Positions 12,914 through 63,165 of a DNA stretch of 64,000 bases are shown here, piece after piece. The notes under the pieces were generated by a model, which was not told the DNA's origin, made no database searches, and saw only the letters and a program-made list of their open reading frames with translations. The DNA comes from Candidatus Gastranaerophilales bacterium (GTDB lineage: Bacteria; Cyanobacteriota; Vampirovibrionia; Gastranaerophilales; Gastranaerophilaceae). Numbering within the stretch: the first letter of the stretch is position 1; each line of letters starts with the position of its first letter. Location: contig CALUTO010000004.1 in NCBI GenBank assembly GCA_944323735.1, positions 1 through 64,000 on the forward strand, written 5' to 3'. The position numbers were made by a program, and so were the translations under genes.

Positions 12914-14164
12914 ATGCTGAATACGAATATGGAAAATAAAAAAACAGACTTTGATACGATAGAAAGTGCCGTCGAAACAATAAAAAAAGGCGGAATGGTT
13001 ATAGTTGCCGATGATGAAGGACGTGAAAACGAGGGCGACTTAATTTGTGCCGCAGAAAAAACCACTCCGGAGATGATAAACTTCATGATGAAAGAGGCAC
13101 GGGGAATACTGTGCGTGCCGCTTACTCCTGATTGTGCAATGCAGCTCGGGCTTGATGAAATGGTAAAGCATAATACGGATATCAAAGGCACCGCCTTTAC
13201 CCAGAGCGTTGATGCGGATCCAAAATTCGGGGTAACAACCGGCGTTTCAGCTTTTGACCGTGCAAAAACAATAGAAGTCATGGTTTCTGAGGGTGCCAAA
13301 CCGTCAGACCTGCGCCGCCCCGGGCATGTGTTTCCTTTGATTGCGAAAACGGGCGGAGTACTCGAAAGAGTCGGTCACACAGAGGCTACTGTTGATTTGT
13401 GCAGACTTGCCGGTCTGAAAGAAATCGGAATATGCTGCGAGATAGTTAACGCTGACGGATCTATGGCCCGCAGAGATGACCTGAGAAAGTTTGCTGATAA
13501 ATATAACATAAAATTTATTACGGTTGCTGATTTAATAGCATACCGTCTCAGAAATGAACGTCTCATGAAAAGAGAGGCAGAGGTCGATTTACCGACAGCA
13601 TTCGGAGATTTCAGACTGATAGGTTACAGACATGTACTAAACGGACAGGAGCACGTTGCGCTGCTAAAAGACGACGGAAGCGATAAAATTCCGCTTGTGA
13701 GAATGCACAGTATATGTCTGACCGGAGACACGTTCCACAGTCTCAGATGTGATTGCAACAGCCAGCTTCAAAATTCAATGAAAATGATTAATGAATACGG
13801 CAAAGGTGCTGTTGTTTACCTTATGAATCAAGAGGGCAGGGGGATTGGAATTGTAAACAAAATAAAAGCTTACGCCCTGCAGGATAAGGGACAGGACACG
13901 GTTGAAGCCAATTTGTCCCTCGGATTTGCCTCAGATTTGCGTGATTACGGCGACGGGGCGCAAATACTGCTGGATTTGGGATTTAAAAGATTTAAACTGA
14001 TTACAAATAACCCTAAAAAAATAGTCGGGCTCGAAGGATACGGGCTTGAAATAGCTGAGAGGATACAGGTGGAATCAGAGTTTACAAAATATAATAAACG
14101 TTATCTCTGTACAAAAGTCAATAAGATGCACCACCTTTTAAATACAGCCGGTATGGAGCAATAG
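12914..14164 (+). CDS. ribBA: Bifunctional 3,4-dihydroxy-2-butanone 4-phosphate synthase / GTP cyclohydrolase II
   Basis: A 416-residue fusion that feeds both branches of riboflavin synthesis. Residues 1-210 are the RibB domain, with DDEGRENEGDL and the HTEATVDLCRLAG segment. Residues 211-416 are GTP cyclohydrolase II, with the zinc ligands in GDTFHSLRCDC, the NQEGRGIGIVNKIKAYALQD catalytic segment and the LITNNPKK motif. Length is typical. The start lies two bases after ribE; a second Met five codons on is also possible. The GNAT gene follows immediately. Confidence 0.96.
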   Translation: MLNTNMENKKTDFDTIESAVETIKKGGMVIVADDEGRENEGDLICAAEKTTPEMINFMMKEARGILCVPLTPDCAMQLGLDEMVKHNTDIKGTAFTQSVDADPKFGVTTGVSAFDRAKTIEVMVSEGAKPSDLRRPGHVFPLIAKTGGVLERVGHTEATVDLCRLAGLKEIGICCEIVNADGSMARRDDLRKFADKYNIKFITVADLIAYRLRNERLMKREAEVDLPTAFGDFRLIGYRHVLNGQEHVALLKDDGSDKIPLVRMHSICLTGDTFHSLRCDCNSQLQNSMKMINEYGKGAVVYLMNQEGRGIGIVNKIKAYALQDKGQDTVEANLSLGFASDLRDYGDGAQILLDLGFKRFKLITNNPKKIVGLEGYGLEIAERIQVESEFTKYNKRYLCTKVNKMHHLLNTAGMEQ

Positions 14165-14165
14165 G

Positions 14166-15155
14166 ATGGCGAATATACTATTATATAAAGTGTGCGAATA
14201 CACAGAGGAATATAAAAAGGTCTTTAGAGGCGTATATGAGGACTTTCGAAGCAAATCATTTACGGATTACAAATTTGAGCTTGAGCCTCTGCAATATGAT
14301 GATTTTATAAGCTCACTGGATGAAGGGCTTATAAAATGCCTTATACTGCTCGAAGATGAAGTCCCGACAGCTTTTATGGTTTATACTACAGAAATCAGCG
14401 AGGCACTTGAACTCAATTTGATTCACTGTCTTGGTGATGAGGAAATAAACCTGAAAAGAAAGCTACTCATGGAGAAATATTTAGAGCTTAATAAAGACCT
14501 GCTTTCTGAAAAAGTGACTATCTATCCGATGCTTGGAAGTCAGGCAGGTTTTGTTGAAGAAATCACAAATTACGGATTTAAGCTCGTCGGTCTGGCTGTT
14601 GTCCGTTTTCTCTTTTCAAATAACTCATCAAAAAACATATTCAGAGCTTATACTCCGAAAGCACTGCCTTCAGGTTATAAAATCACAAAATGGAAAGATT
14701 CATACAAAAACAGCAGCATTAATATAATCAATGATGCCTTTAAACACGAATCAGACGCTCTTTTTGACACAAGATTTTTATCAAAAGAAGGCTGCAAGGA
14801 TATTATTGACAAAATTACAGCAGGTATATACGGGGAATTTTTGCCTGATTGTACAAGTGTACTGCTTTATAAAAATGAACCGGCAGGAATATGCTTTGCA
14901 AATATTACAGGGGGTAAAATAGGCAATATTCCGCTTATCGGCATTTTACACAAGCACAGATATAAAGGTTTTGGCGAACTATTGCTGCACAACACACTAA
15001 AAAATGCTCTCGACAATTATTCCGAAACACTTACAGAGCTAAATGCAAGCACCGAAACTGACAATTATACTGCTATAAAAATGTACAGACGGCTTGGTTT
15101 TAAAGAAGATTATTGCTATCCTCAGGCATACAGACCTGTTGAACAAAAGGACTAG
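14166..15155 (+). CDS. GNAT-family N-acetyltransferase
   Basis: A 329-residue protein with a C-terminal GNAT fold: the acetyl-CoA loop HKHRYKGFGELLL near residue 260, followed by the N-A-x-N-Y-A-x-x-Y-x-x-x-G-F-like segment TDNYTAIKMYRRLGFK. The N-terminal half may be a second, degenerate acyltransferase domain. The start is one base past the ribBA stop, with GGAG just upstream, so it belongs to the rib operon by position. The acyl acceptor is unknown, and a link to flavins is not shown by the sequence. Confidence 0.8.
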   Translation: MANILLYKVCEYTEEYKKVFRGVYEDFRSKSFTDYKFELEPLQYDDFISSLDEGLIKCLILLEDEVPTAFMVYTTEISEALELNLIHCLGDEEINLKRKLLMEKYLELNKDLLSEKVTIYPMLGSQAGFVEEITNYGFKLVGLAVVRFLFSNNSSKNIFRAYTPKALPSGYKITKWKDSYKNSSINIINDAFKHESDALFDTRFLSKEGCKDIIDKITAGIYGEFLPDCTSVLLYKNEPAGICFANITGGKIGNIPLIGILHKHRYKGFGELLLHNTLKNALDNYSETLTELNASTETDNYTAIKMYRRLGFKEDYCYPQAYRPVEQKD

Positions 15156-57704: not shown

Positions 57705-59722
<2,018 letters not shown>

Positions 59723-59723
<1 letters not shown>

Positions 59724-60145
59724 TGAACAAACGTTTTAATATAATACAGCTTTCAGGACTAAAGGGAATATTTTTTATCGTATTTTTAATCGGCTGCGCA
59801 ATTGCCGGTTTTCTGGTATTCCCGGGATGGGTCTGCATGCTTGTCTGGAACTATGCAATGTCCCATTTCCTCGATATGCCGTCTATGACTATATTGCACG
59901 GAATAATTCTCTGGTGTATAATTGCACTTATTACTTTCCAGCTGAACAAAAAAGATTTCGGAATTTCTTTTAAAAGCGTCTCCGGAGACGAAGAAAGAAT
60001 AAATAATATAATTGAAGAACGCAAAAAAGAAGAAAGACTCAGACGTGCTGCAATTTCTGAACTCCGGAGTATCGACGAAATCACAAAAATCTACGAAAAA
60101 AATAACCAAAAAGAAGATGATATGAAAAACAGGAGCTCAAAATGA
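59723..60145 (+). CDS. Small membrane protein of unknown function
   Basis: A 140-residue protein with two membrane helices (about 14-37 and 55-73) joined by a short loop, and a charged, helical C-terminal tail (95-135) rich in Glu/Arg/Lys that may be coiled coil. I recognise no family. Its ATG overlaps the ligA stop (TAATG) and its end overlaps the SIMPL gene start by four bases, so the three genes form a coupled operon. Confidence 0.75.
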
Positions 60146-60843
60146 AAAAAATTATTCTGTTGTTAACTCTGGCCTTATTATCAATGCCTGTACTTAAATC
60201 AGAAGCGATTACAGTAACAGAGAAAGATCACGGATTTATATCAGTAACAGTCTCCGCAGCAAAAGAAATTGAGCCGGACACGGCATCAGTATCCTTTTCC
60301 GTAGAAACAACAGCTCCTACCGCACAGGCCGCAGTAAATGAAAATAACACAAAAACAGAAAAGCTTATTTCAGCCCTGAAACCTCTCATTTCGCTAGACA
60401 AAAGTGATACAATCTCGACAGCCAGCATAGAAGTAAAACCTGTTTATACAACCGATAAAAAAGGCAACAAAACATTCAAGCATTACAAAATGGAAAACAC
60501 AATTATTGTTAAAATAAAAGACATCAGCAAAGTTTCCAAACTCATCGACTGCGCTGTTGAAAATCACGCAACCAGAGTTGAGGACATCAAATATTACATA
60601 GAAAATGATGACCTTTACTCGGCAGCACTGATAAAAGAAGCAGCACAAAAAGCAGAATCAAATGCTGACATGACAGCAAAATCGCTTGACAAAAAGCTTT
60701 GCGGGGTAAAAAGGATTTTTGTTAACTGCGTGCAAAACAGAGCTTCTGCCGCATACGGTGCAAATCTCGTAAAAAGCACACCGGTGCAACCTCAAAAAGT
60801 CAACATGGAAGTTTATGTTAACGCTGATTTTTACGTTAAATAA
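60142..60843 (+). CDS. Exported SIMPL-domain (DUF541) protein
   Basis: A 233-residue periplasmic protein with a signal peptide (cleavage near SEA-IT) and a SIMPL domain. The segment ISVTVSAAKEIEPDTASVSFSVET begins the domain (SVTVSAAKEIEPDTASVSFS in part) and a conserved AALIKEAAQKAESNADMTAK helix follows. Oligomeric SIMPL proteins are linked to oxidative-stress tolerance and outer-membrane stability, but the precise role is unknown. It overlaps the preceding membrane protein gene and ends before the hairpin at 60857-60886. Confidence 0.87.
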   Translation: MKKIILLLTLALLSMPVLKSEAITVTEKDHGFISVTVSAAKEIEPDTASVSFSVETTAPTAQAAVNENNTKTEKLISALKPLISLDKSDTISTASIEVKPVYTTDKKGNKTFKHYKMENTIIVKIKDISKVSKLIDCAVENHATRVEDIKYYIENDDLYSAALIKEAAQKAESNADMTAKSLDKKLCGVKRIFVNCVQNRASAAYGANLVKSTPVQPQKVNMEVYVNADFYVK

Positions 60844-60856
60844 TATTTAACACAAA

Positions 60857-60886
60857 AGCCGTGCCTGTTAAAAGAACAGCACGGCT
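60857..60886 (+). terminator. Hairpin between the ligA operon and the histidine genes
   Basis: AGCCGTGCCTGTT and AACAGCACGGCT form a 12-bp stem with one bulged C and a 5-base loop. It is followed by GATAAAATA rather than a U-tract, so it may be a weak terminator or an mRNA stability element; it lies 18 bases before the hisC start. Confidence 0.6.
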
Positions 60887-60904
60887 GATAAAATACGCAA
60901 AAAT

Positions 60905-62590
60905 ATGATTGAACCGAAAAGAACACTTAAAAATTTAAAAATTTATGAAACCGACCTGTATCCTGAAGAATGGACAATGAAACTGGACTCGAATGAGAAT
61001 TACATCGGTCCTTCAAAAAAAGTCTTTGAAGCACTGAAAAATCTTTCCGCTGATGACATTTCGCACTATCCATATTACGGAGAAATCATTGAGCAGCTCT
61101 CAAAAAAATATACACTCAGCAATAAGTCGATAGTTCTGACCAACGGTGCAGACGAAGCTATATCTGCTGTAATAGGGACATACGCAGAGCCTTTTGACTC
61201 AATTGTCACTGTTACACCTTCATTTTCAATGCCGGGGATATACGCACAGCAGCACGGCTGCGAATACATTGAAATTGAATATGAGAAAAAATACGTTTTC
61301 CCTTTTGAAAAGCTTGTAAAATCAATACAAAACAATACAAAAATTATCTATCTTACAACCCCGAACAATCCTACCGGAAATATCATTCCGGTTGAACAAA
61401 TAAAATATATACTCGAACATTTCAAAGATAAACTTGTTGCAGTTGATGAAACCTACGGCACATTTGCTGAATACTCCTGCATACCGCTTACAAAAGATTA
61501 CAACAATCTTATAGTTATAAAATCAATGTCAAAAGACTACGGACTCGCAGGACTGAGACTTGGTTTTCTTGTGTCAGCCCCCGAAAATATAGCTAATGTA
61601 AAAAAGATACTCAGCCCCTACAACGTAAATCAGGCTGCAGTAAAAGCAGCAGCTGCTGCACTTTCTGACAACAAGCATTTGGATTACATAAAATCCGAAA
61701 TCAACAAATCAAAAGAATTCTTAACAAAAGAACTGAAAAAAATCGGGGCAGTTGTATATGAATCACACGCAAATTTTATTCTTGCAGAATTTGGTGAAAA
61801 AACAGACTACGTATACTCAACATTGCTCAAAAACAGAATAATCGTAAAAAAAATGGACAGTTTAAAAGCCCTCAGAATCACACTTCCTACACTCGAAGCC
61901 GCAAAAAAAATCACACATCTGATTGTTGCGAAGGACATAATTGTTTTTGACATGGACGGAGTGCTTGTTGACGTTGAAAATTCGTACAGACTTGCAATTG
62001 CAGAGACATATAAATTCTTCACAAAACACAGCATATCTCCGGCAGACATACAGAATGCAAAAAATGAAGGCGGACTGAACAATGACTGGGATTTAACATA
62101 CCATTTGCTAAAAGCGGCAGGCACATGGGTACCTTATGACGATATTGTCGAAAAATTCCAGCAGATGTACTGGAATAACGGAAATGGCTGTATCAACAAT
62201 GAAACACTCCTTGTTGATCCAATGCTTTTGAAAATGCTTTCAGAACGATATATTCTTGCGGTTTTTACCGGCCGCCCCAGAGCAGAAGCGGAGTTTACAC
62301 TGAATAAATTCGATATAATGAAATATTTTTCAAAAGTGATAACAATGAACGACCTCCCGCAAAAACGTCAGAAGCCGGATACACTCGGACTTGAAATGAT
62401 TAAAAACTCTGTTTATGCAGGAAAAATGATGTATGCAGGAGACACAATAGACGACATGAAATGCGCAAAGGATTTCAGGATAACGGGCTTCGGGGTCGCA
62501 AAAACAAAAGAACAGGCAGAGCTGCTGCTGAAAAACGGCGCAAAATATGTTATAAATAGTATAAATCAGCTTGGAGAATTTATCAGATGA
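60905..62590 (+). CDS. hisC: Histidinol-phosphate aminotransferase fused to a HAD phosphatase
   Basis: A 561-residue fusion. Residues 1-340 are HisC, with DSNENYIGPS, LTNGADEAI, TPNNPTGN, VDETYGTF and the PLP lysine in SMSKDYGLAGLRLG. Residues 341-561 are a HAD subfamily IA domain with motif I FDMDGVLVD (D349, D351), motif II FTGRP, a KPDT motif III and motif IV AGDTIDDMKCA, all intact. HisC makes histidinol phosphate, whose dephosphorylation is the next step, so the HAD domain is probably the missing histidinol-phosphatase. hisB follows with a 4-base overlap. The HAD part resembles a small group known from cyanobacteria. Confidence 0.9.
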   Translation: MIEPKRTLKNLKIYETDLYPEEWTMKLDSNENYIGPSKKVFEALKNLSADDISHYPYYGEIIEQLSKKYTLSNKSIVLTNGADEAISAVIGTYAEPFDSIVTVTPSFSMPGIYAQQHGCEYIEIEYEKKYVFPFEKLVKSIQNNTKIIYLTTPNNPTGNIIPVEQIKYILEHFKDKLVAVDETYGTFAEYSCIPLTKDYNNLIVIKSMSKDYGLAGLRLGFLVSAPENIANVKKILSPYNVNQAAVKAAAAALSDNKHLDYIKSEINKSKEFLTKELKKIGAVVYESHANFILAEFGEKTDYVYSTLLKNRIIVKKMDSLKALRITLPTLEAAKKITHLIVAKDIIVFDMDGVLVDVENSYRLAIAETYKFFTKHSISPADIQNAKNEGGLNNDWDLTYHLLKAAGTWVPYDDIVEKFQQMYWNNGNGCINNETLLVDPMLLKMLSERYILAVFTGRPRAEAEFTLNKFDIMKYFSKVITMNDLPQKRQKPDTLGLEMIKNSVYAGKMMYAGDTIDDMKCAKDFRITGFGVAKTKEQAELLLKNGAKYVINSINQLGEFIR

Positions 62591-63165
62591 AGAACAGTGA
62601 AATCAAAAGAAATACAAAAGAAACAGAAATAGAAGTAAAATTATGCCCCGCTGAAAGCCCTGAATACGAAATAAATTGCGACTGCAAATTTTTTAAACAC
62701 ATGCTTGAACAATTTGCATATCACTCCGGCTTTAGCTTAAAGTTAAAGGCAAAATCTCTTGACGGTGATTTACATCATCTGGTTGAAGATACAGCAATTG
62801 CACTTGGCAAAGCTTTTTCAGAAGCACTTTCAGACAAAACGGGCATTACCCGCTACGGACAGTGCATATTGCCGATGGACGATGCGCTTGTACTCTGTGC
62901 AGTGGATATATCCGGCAGGGCATGGTCAGTGACAGAGCTTGATTTAAAAGATGCAAGAGTTTCTGATTTTGAAACAATACTCATACCGCATTTTTTCACC
63001 AGCTTTGCGCAAAACGCAGGCATAACACTGCATATTAAACAGCTTTCAGGAAAAGATACACATCATATTATTGAAGCAGCTTTTAAAGCCTTTGCAAGAG
63101 CCGTAAAACAGGCTGTTGCAAAGACAGAATCACAGACTGTTCCTTCTACTAAAGGCTGCTTATAA
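62587..63165 (+). CDS. hisB: Imidazoleglycerol-phosphate dehydratase
   Basis: A 192-residue monofunctional HisB dehydratase making imidazole-acetol phosphate, the substrate of HisC. Paired metal-binding motifs FKHMLEQFAYH, LHHLVEDTAIALGKAF and THHIIEAAFKAFARA are conserved; the opening RNTKETEI is typical. It lacks the phosphatase domain of enterobacterial HisB, which fits the HAD domain being fused to HisC instead. The ATG overlaps the hisC stop by four bases. Confidence 0.95.
   Translation: MKNSEIKRNTKETEIEVKLCPAESPEYEINCDCKFFKHMLEQFAYHSGFSLKLKAKSLDGDLHHLVEDTAIALGKAFSEALSDKTGITRYGQCILPMDDALVLCAVDISGRAWSVTELDLKDARVSDFETILIPHFFTSFAQNAGITLHIKQLSGKDTHHIIEAAFKAFARAVKQAVAKTESQTVPSTKGCL

Follow-up and report, generated by a model that had tools for sequence, protein, structure and literature searches.

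Introduction

In E. coli, the bifunctional HisB protein joins a HAD-type histidinol-phosphate phosphatase (HolPase), HisB-N, to an imidazoleglycerol-phosphate dehydratase (IGPD) domain (PMC5516325). A monofunctional HAD HolPase has been described from Thermococcus onnurineus (Lee 2008, as cited in PMC5516325). The same reaction is catalysed by the PHP enzymes HisJ/HisK and the IMPase-like HisN, which have unrelated folds. Two identical transposon mutants of the HAD hydrolase gene HVO_0431 in Haloferax volcanii were histidine auxotrophs (PMC4300041). HVO_0431 fits the sole remaining gap in the pathway, histidinol-phosphatase, and was proposed as the HolPase in a later survey (PMC8305020). HisN is also the commonest low-confidence step in GapMind, affecting 28% of 148 prototrophs, and for Synechococcus elongatus no convincing HisN candidate needed for growth was found (PMC7311316).

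The DNA analysed here, referred to as the window, is a stretch of 64,000 nucleotides from a Candidatus Gastranaerophilales bacterium (GenBank assembly GCA_944323735.1, contig CALUTO010000004.1, positions 1 to 64,000). It includes an ATG-start open reading frame of 561 amino acids at 60905-62590 on the forward strand, which consists of HisC (residues 1-339) and a HAD domain (residues 344-561). Its product is most likely bifunctional, catalysing both step 7 and step 8 of histidine biosynthesis, with the HAD half dephosphorylating histidinol phosphate. As in E. coli HisB, a HAD HolPase would be carried on a bifunctional protein of the histidine pathway, but in the window it is a C1-capped HAD-IA domain at the C-terminus of HisC, and HisB is monofunctional. 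Going by its description in PMC5516325, the T. onnurineus HolPase is likewise a HAD outside HisB-N, but the archaeal enzyme is unfused.

Results and discussion

The HisC-HAD fusion gene and hisB

An earlier note on this DNA, made from the sequence alone, had described a HisC-HAD fusion with four intact HAD motifs and a hisB gene overlapping it by four bases, and each of these points was borne out. The features of the locus are as follows.

60905..61921, forward strand: HisC domain, histidinol-phosphate aminotransferase, residues 1-339 (TIGR01141, E=8e-81; conserved PLP-site residues)
61532..61534, forward strand: codon of the PLP-binding lysine K210 (the same in all ten fusions of alignment A3)
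61934..62587, forward strand: C1-capped HAD phosphatase domain, predicted histidinol-phosphate phosphatase, residues 344-561 (TIGR01548, E=1.6e-36; AlphaFold; HAD-IA fold matches)
61946..61963, forward strand: HAD motif I, FDMDGV, with D349 and D351 (sequence, alignment)
62078..62089, forward strand: NNDW subfamily signature in the cap domain, residues 392-395 (alignment A2)
62267..62269, forward strand: threonine T455 of HAD motif II (FTGR; sequence, alignment)
62372..62374, forward strand: lysine K490 of HAD motif III (QKPD; sequence, alignment)
62438..62455, forward strand: HAD motif IV, GDTIDD, with D513, D516 and D517 (sequence, alignment)
62587..63165, forward strand: hisB, monofunctional imidazoleglycerol-phosphate dehydratase, 192 aa (HisB models down to E=1.7e-68; Pfam IGPD, 2e-56)

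The HisC half matches TIGR01141, by far its best-scoring model, over residues 6-336 (E=8e-81) with 271.6 bits, five bits under the curated cut-off of 276.55 bits, and keeps the active-site residues D181, Y184, R218 and R324 in addition to the PLP lysine. The HAD domain starts a few residues past the HisC C-terminus, and the AlphaFold model of the whole fusion is well folded (pLDDT 88.1). The stop codon of the fusion and the start codon of hisB overlap in the sequence ATGA at 62587-62590. Since 67 of the 239 related genomes carry the fusion, 57 of them together with hisB, it is neither a chance event nor an assembly artefact, and hisB adjoins it at every locus read among those 57 genomes.

The earlier note's proposal that the two genes cover three consecutive steps is supported, the last of these as a prediction. 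The overlapping hisB would provide step 6, the HisC half would transaminate imidazole-acetol phosphate to L-histidinol phosphate (step 7), and the HAD half would convert this to L-histidinol by the usual HAD aspartyl-phosphate mechanism (step 8). Channelling of histidinol phosphate, or a fixed stoichiometry, might be the benefit of the fusion, though this is speculation.

The gene order ligA, an ORF of ~140 aa, a SIMPL/DUF541 gene, the fusion and hisB (58053-63165 in the window) recurs at L037 and L038, which belong to two other genera; the three upstream genes have no relation to histidine, and their order is nonetheless conserved. The SIMPL gene is separated from the fusion by a gap that contains a perfect inverted repeat at 60859-60890 (AGCCGTGC-CTGTT / AACAG-CACGGCT), ~17 bases 5' of the start codon, which may be a terminator or a leader hairpin.

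Family and fold of the HAD domain

Scanned alone, the HAD domain matches TIGR01548 (NCBIfam HAD-SF-IA-hyp1) over residues 344-521 (E=1.6e-36) with 127.8 bits, and since the curated cut-off is 140.2 bits, the domain is termed TIGR01548-like and not a curated member. As both halves of the fusion score slightly under their curated cut-offs, automatic annotation would tend to miss naming the second function. With the TIGR01548 family, including (by synteny) HVO_0431, the domain has in common the HAD subfamily and the signatures of the NNDW subfamily (the motif I context, S-Y, NNDW and GDT.DD), whereas the known members of the family are stand-alone proteins and the window's domain is fused to HisC. 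The NNDW signature is invariant among the 32 sequences of alignment A2, all of which, except that of the window, were retrieved by the NNDW motif itself, and it may have a role in substrate choice.

The four catalytic motifs and the helical C1 cap following motif I place the domain in subfamily IA of the HAD superfamily. From general HAD knowledge we take D349 to be the nucleophile and D351 the acid/base, with T455 and K490 handling the phosphate and D513/D517 binding Mg2+. The domain is predicted with a mean pLDDT of 95.6 to have a fold of the beta-phosphoglucomutase/phosphoglycolate-phosphatase kind, and its nearest solved relative by profile is Tt82 from Thermococcus thioreducens (6iah), another Thermococcus HAD besides the T. 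onnurineus HolPase. Membership of HisB-N was ruled out by the family scan and the fold. HisB-N (histidinol-ppas HAD) models are absent from the 17 NCBIfam matches of the domain, HisB being a separate ORF, and the 50 fold matches listed include no HisB-N structure.

Search for another histidinol-phosphatase in the genome

The earlier note had asked for a check that no other histidinol-phosphatase is in the genome. The genome of the window, which is 99.7% complete, was searched family by family. The only TIGR01548 match is the fusion, and IMPase (PF00459; HisN type) gave no match. The PHP proteins are limited to DnaE and two RNase AM-like phosphatases, the best PHP score against the HisJ model TIGR01856 being 26 bits at a cut-off of 90.2. 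HisB-N/GmhB was not found; the Histidinol-ppas model detected only a phosphoglycolate-phosphatase-like HAD and YqeG in this genome. Another HolPase of the PHP, IMPase, HisB-N/GmhB or other HAD kind was therefore rejected after these searches, and plasmid searches yielded nothing, or unrelated HADs only. Further his genes present in the genome are hisD, HisF and a HisA-HisI-HisE fusion.

This triple fusion of 408 aa (L284 397-1623, reverse strand, corresponding to about 12996-14222 of the second contig of the window's genome, G000:C2) is retained by relatives that have lost the pathway, such as G284.

The claim that the HAD domain represents a different solution from known HolPases holds in part: the domain is of neither HisB-N, PHP nor IMPase type, but HAD-type HolPases were already known and a Haloferax member of the family had been proposed. 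Given the E. coli HisB-N and T. onnurineus enzymes (PMC5516325), the novelty is limited to the family and the fusion. As far as the literature searched shows, the HisC-HolPase fusion, the evidence from his operons across phyla and the evidence from decay and replacement are new.

Co-occurrence and decay in related genomes

Among 239 genomes sampled from the family to which the window belongs, the fusion was found in 67 and hisB in 58, with 57 of the 58 hisB-positive genomes carrying the fusion. The exception, G291, was set aside as a counter-example; it has a complete Firmicute-like his operon, hisZ-G-D-C-B-H-A-F-IE, at L122 (G291:C10), probably on a contaminating contig or acquired by transfer. 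IMPase occurs in a single one of the 239 genomes, and HisJ accompanies none of the 57 intact fusions.

Ten genomes have the fusion and no hisB match; in two of these the fusion lies at a contig end, and the other eight also lack hisD and HisF. The HAD catalytic residues are lost in seven of these eight pathway-less fusions, through replacement of the nucleophile D by N, loss of a motif IV D or deletion of motif I. The eighth, G220, keeps them, with NNDW and the HisC lysine lost; K210 is lost in four of the eight. Compared with fusions in pathway-positive genomes, where the HAD motifs are intact in 56 of 57, the decay of the HAD is significant by Fisher's test if kinship is ignored (p=9e-8). 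The HisC tree resolves this into three independent pathway losses, with none in the opposite direction, a number too small for significance in an independent-pairs test. Because HisC also decays in several of the eight, the decay ties the fusion to the pathway and not a given half to its function.

Four genomes of genus g19 (G227, G290, G310 and G329) have hisD and HisF, with hisB and the fusion both absent; either the entire three-step unit is apparently absent, or it falls in an assembly gap.

Related HAD proteins in other phyla and in Haloferax

Public genomes were scanned at the DNA level for a pattern encoding GG[FL]NNDW plus the two bases that follow, which gave at least 80 readable loci, in all of which the motif lies in a HAD-like frame. 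Among the loci listed, hisC and hisB flank the HAD gene in Bathyarchaeota (L162, L231, L233), Sifarchaeum of the Sifarchaeota (L199) and KSB1 (L205). Elsewhere its neighbours are other his genes, as in Odinarchaeia (L175), Blastocatellia (L184), Myxococcales (L206) and Atribacteria (L214), among other groups. HisC-HAD fusions within his clusters are found among the same loci in Halobacteroidaceae (L209, L237) and a gammaproteobacterial MAG (L211), in addition to the Gastranaerophilales, where the HAD domain at L228 is 83% identical to that of the window. Many of the loci listed are haloarchaeal, with the his genes mostly distant, and a group of members from Desulfobacterales/Spirochaetes (about 340 aa) has no his neighbours. 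Stand-alone TIGR01548 proteins also occur in genomes of the phylum-wide sample, as would be expected for cyanobacteria. The HAD solution to this step is far wider in scope than the fusion described in the earlier note.

In each of two other Haloferax species, the one TIGR01548 gene over the cut-off directly precedes an npdG-like gene, and a HisE-like ORF is found nearby; the Haloferax member scores 223.6 bits. As HVO_0433 is npdG, this synteny indicates that HVO_0431 is very probably the Haloferax TIGR01548 member.

The HAD tree unites every Gastranaerophilales fusion with the stand-alone proteins derived from these fusions (97/89), and the deep branches lack resolution. Since a single clade of all fusions was not rejected (AU p=0.34), no claim is made for independent fusion in Halobacteroidaceae and Gammaproteobacteria.

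Function of the HAD domain

HAD-IA enzymes are often promiscuous, and the HAD domain could act on another phosphate, such as phosphoserine, a sugar phosphate or a pathway by-product, with a so far unrecognised general phosphatase hydrolysing histidinol phosphate; the genome does encode other HADs, for example the phosphoglycolate-phosphatase-like protein. In genera g20, g107 and g110, which lack hisB and hisD, stand-alone HADs have kept their motifs intact, so the domain can serve another use. These stand-alone genes nest inside the fusion clade, which disfavours the stand-alone form as ancestral; they likelier arose by fission of the fusion, though a single stand-alone clade was not rejected (AU p=0.39). 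Against another substrate in the window stand the occurrence of the HAD in several phyla either fused to HisC or encoded between hisC and hisB, its decay when the pathway is lost and the histidine-specific auxotrophy of the HVO_0431 mutants (PMC4300041), and we consider this explanation improbable.

The intact stand-alone genes (L041 7612-8358, L118 2329-3027, L121 2300-3010, L113 2253-3158 and L115 1843-2520) are each divergent to a neighbouring gene with a conserved VVYP...STFFVG start.

A non-catalytic HAD domain, serving only the folding, stability or regulation of HisC, would account for the degenerate HADs of pathway-less relatives and of G318, the only pathway-positive genome with a destroyed HAD, in which hisB, hisD, HisF and HisA are kept and the HisC active site is intact. 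The intact motifs of the window and of all other pathway-positive fusions, together with a HAD identity among pathway-positive relatives as high as that of HisC, make this reading highly improbable. G318 is also the only hisB-positive genome with a PHP HisJ over the cut-off (L286 1126-1911), and its sister G284 has the same HisJ locus and the same destroyed HAD. A takeover of the HAD's function by HisJ would leave just this pattern, which concerns only the HAD half; in G318 and G284, one type of HolPase appears to have been replaced by another. The HisJ of G318 may, however, be no HolPase, as HisJ-like genes also occur in 39 genomes that have no hisB.

In all, 40 of the 239 family genomes (G318, L160 and about 38 more) encode a HisJ-type PHP phosphatase, and 39 of these have neither hisB nor hisD.

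Unrelated genes do fuse, and one HAD of the family is joined to WD40 repeats, but a chance joining of HisC and HAD with no meaning for the pathway is already refuted by the conservation of the fusion, its tie to hisB and the HisC-HAD fusions inside the his operons of two other phyla. The WD40 protein is a single ORF of 672 aa in a Spirochaetes MAG (L173 2009-4027, reverse strand), with an NNDW-type HAD followed by a C-terminal beta-propeller.

The earlier prediction that the HAD part is a histidinol-phosphatase is therefore supported. Genetic evidence from Haloferax and the computed genomic evidence, comprising the fusion, its intact motifs and fold, co-occurrence, co-decay and operon context, indicate that the window's HAD domain is very probably a histidinol-phosphate phosphatase (EC 3.1.3.15), as a predicted activity.

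Implications

The TIGR01548-like NNDW HADs would represent a HolPase family of wide distribution, separate from HisB-N, PHP HisJ/HisK and IMPase HisN. Taken as a whole, they are on balance likely to be the HolPases of haloarchaea, photosynthetic cyanobacteria, Bathyarchaeota, Asgard-type archaea and several bacterial phyla, closing much of the HisN gap and having been fused to HisC once or several times. The fusion acts as a Rosetta stone, which, with the operon context and co-decay, gives a specific and quickly testable function to TIGR01548, a family of archaea and bacteria labelled hypothetical. The host is a non-photosynthetic relative of cyanobacteria. Two consecutive steps of histidine biosynthesis are combined there in a single protein, whose HAD half would supply the step most often missing in annotations.
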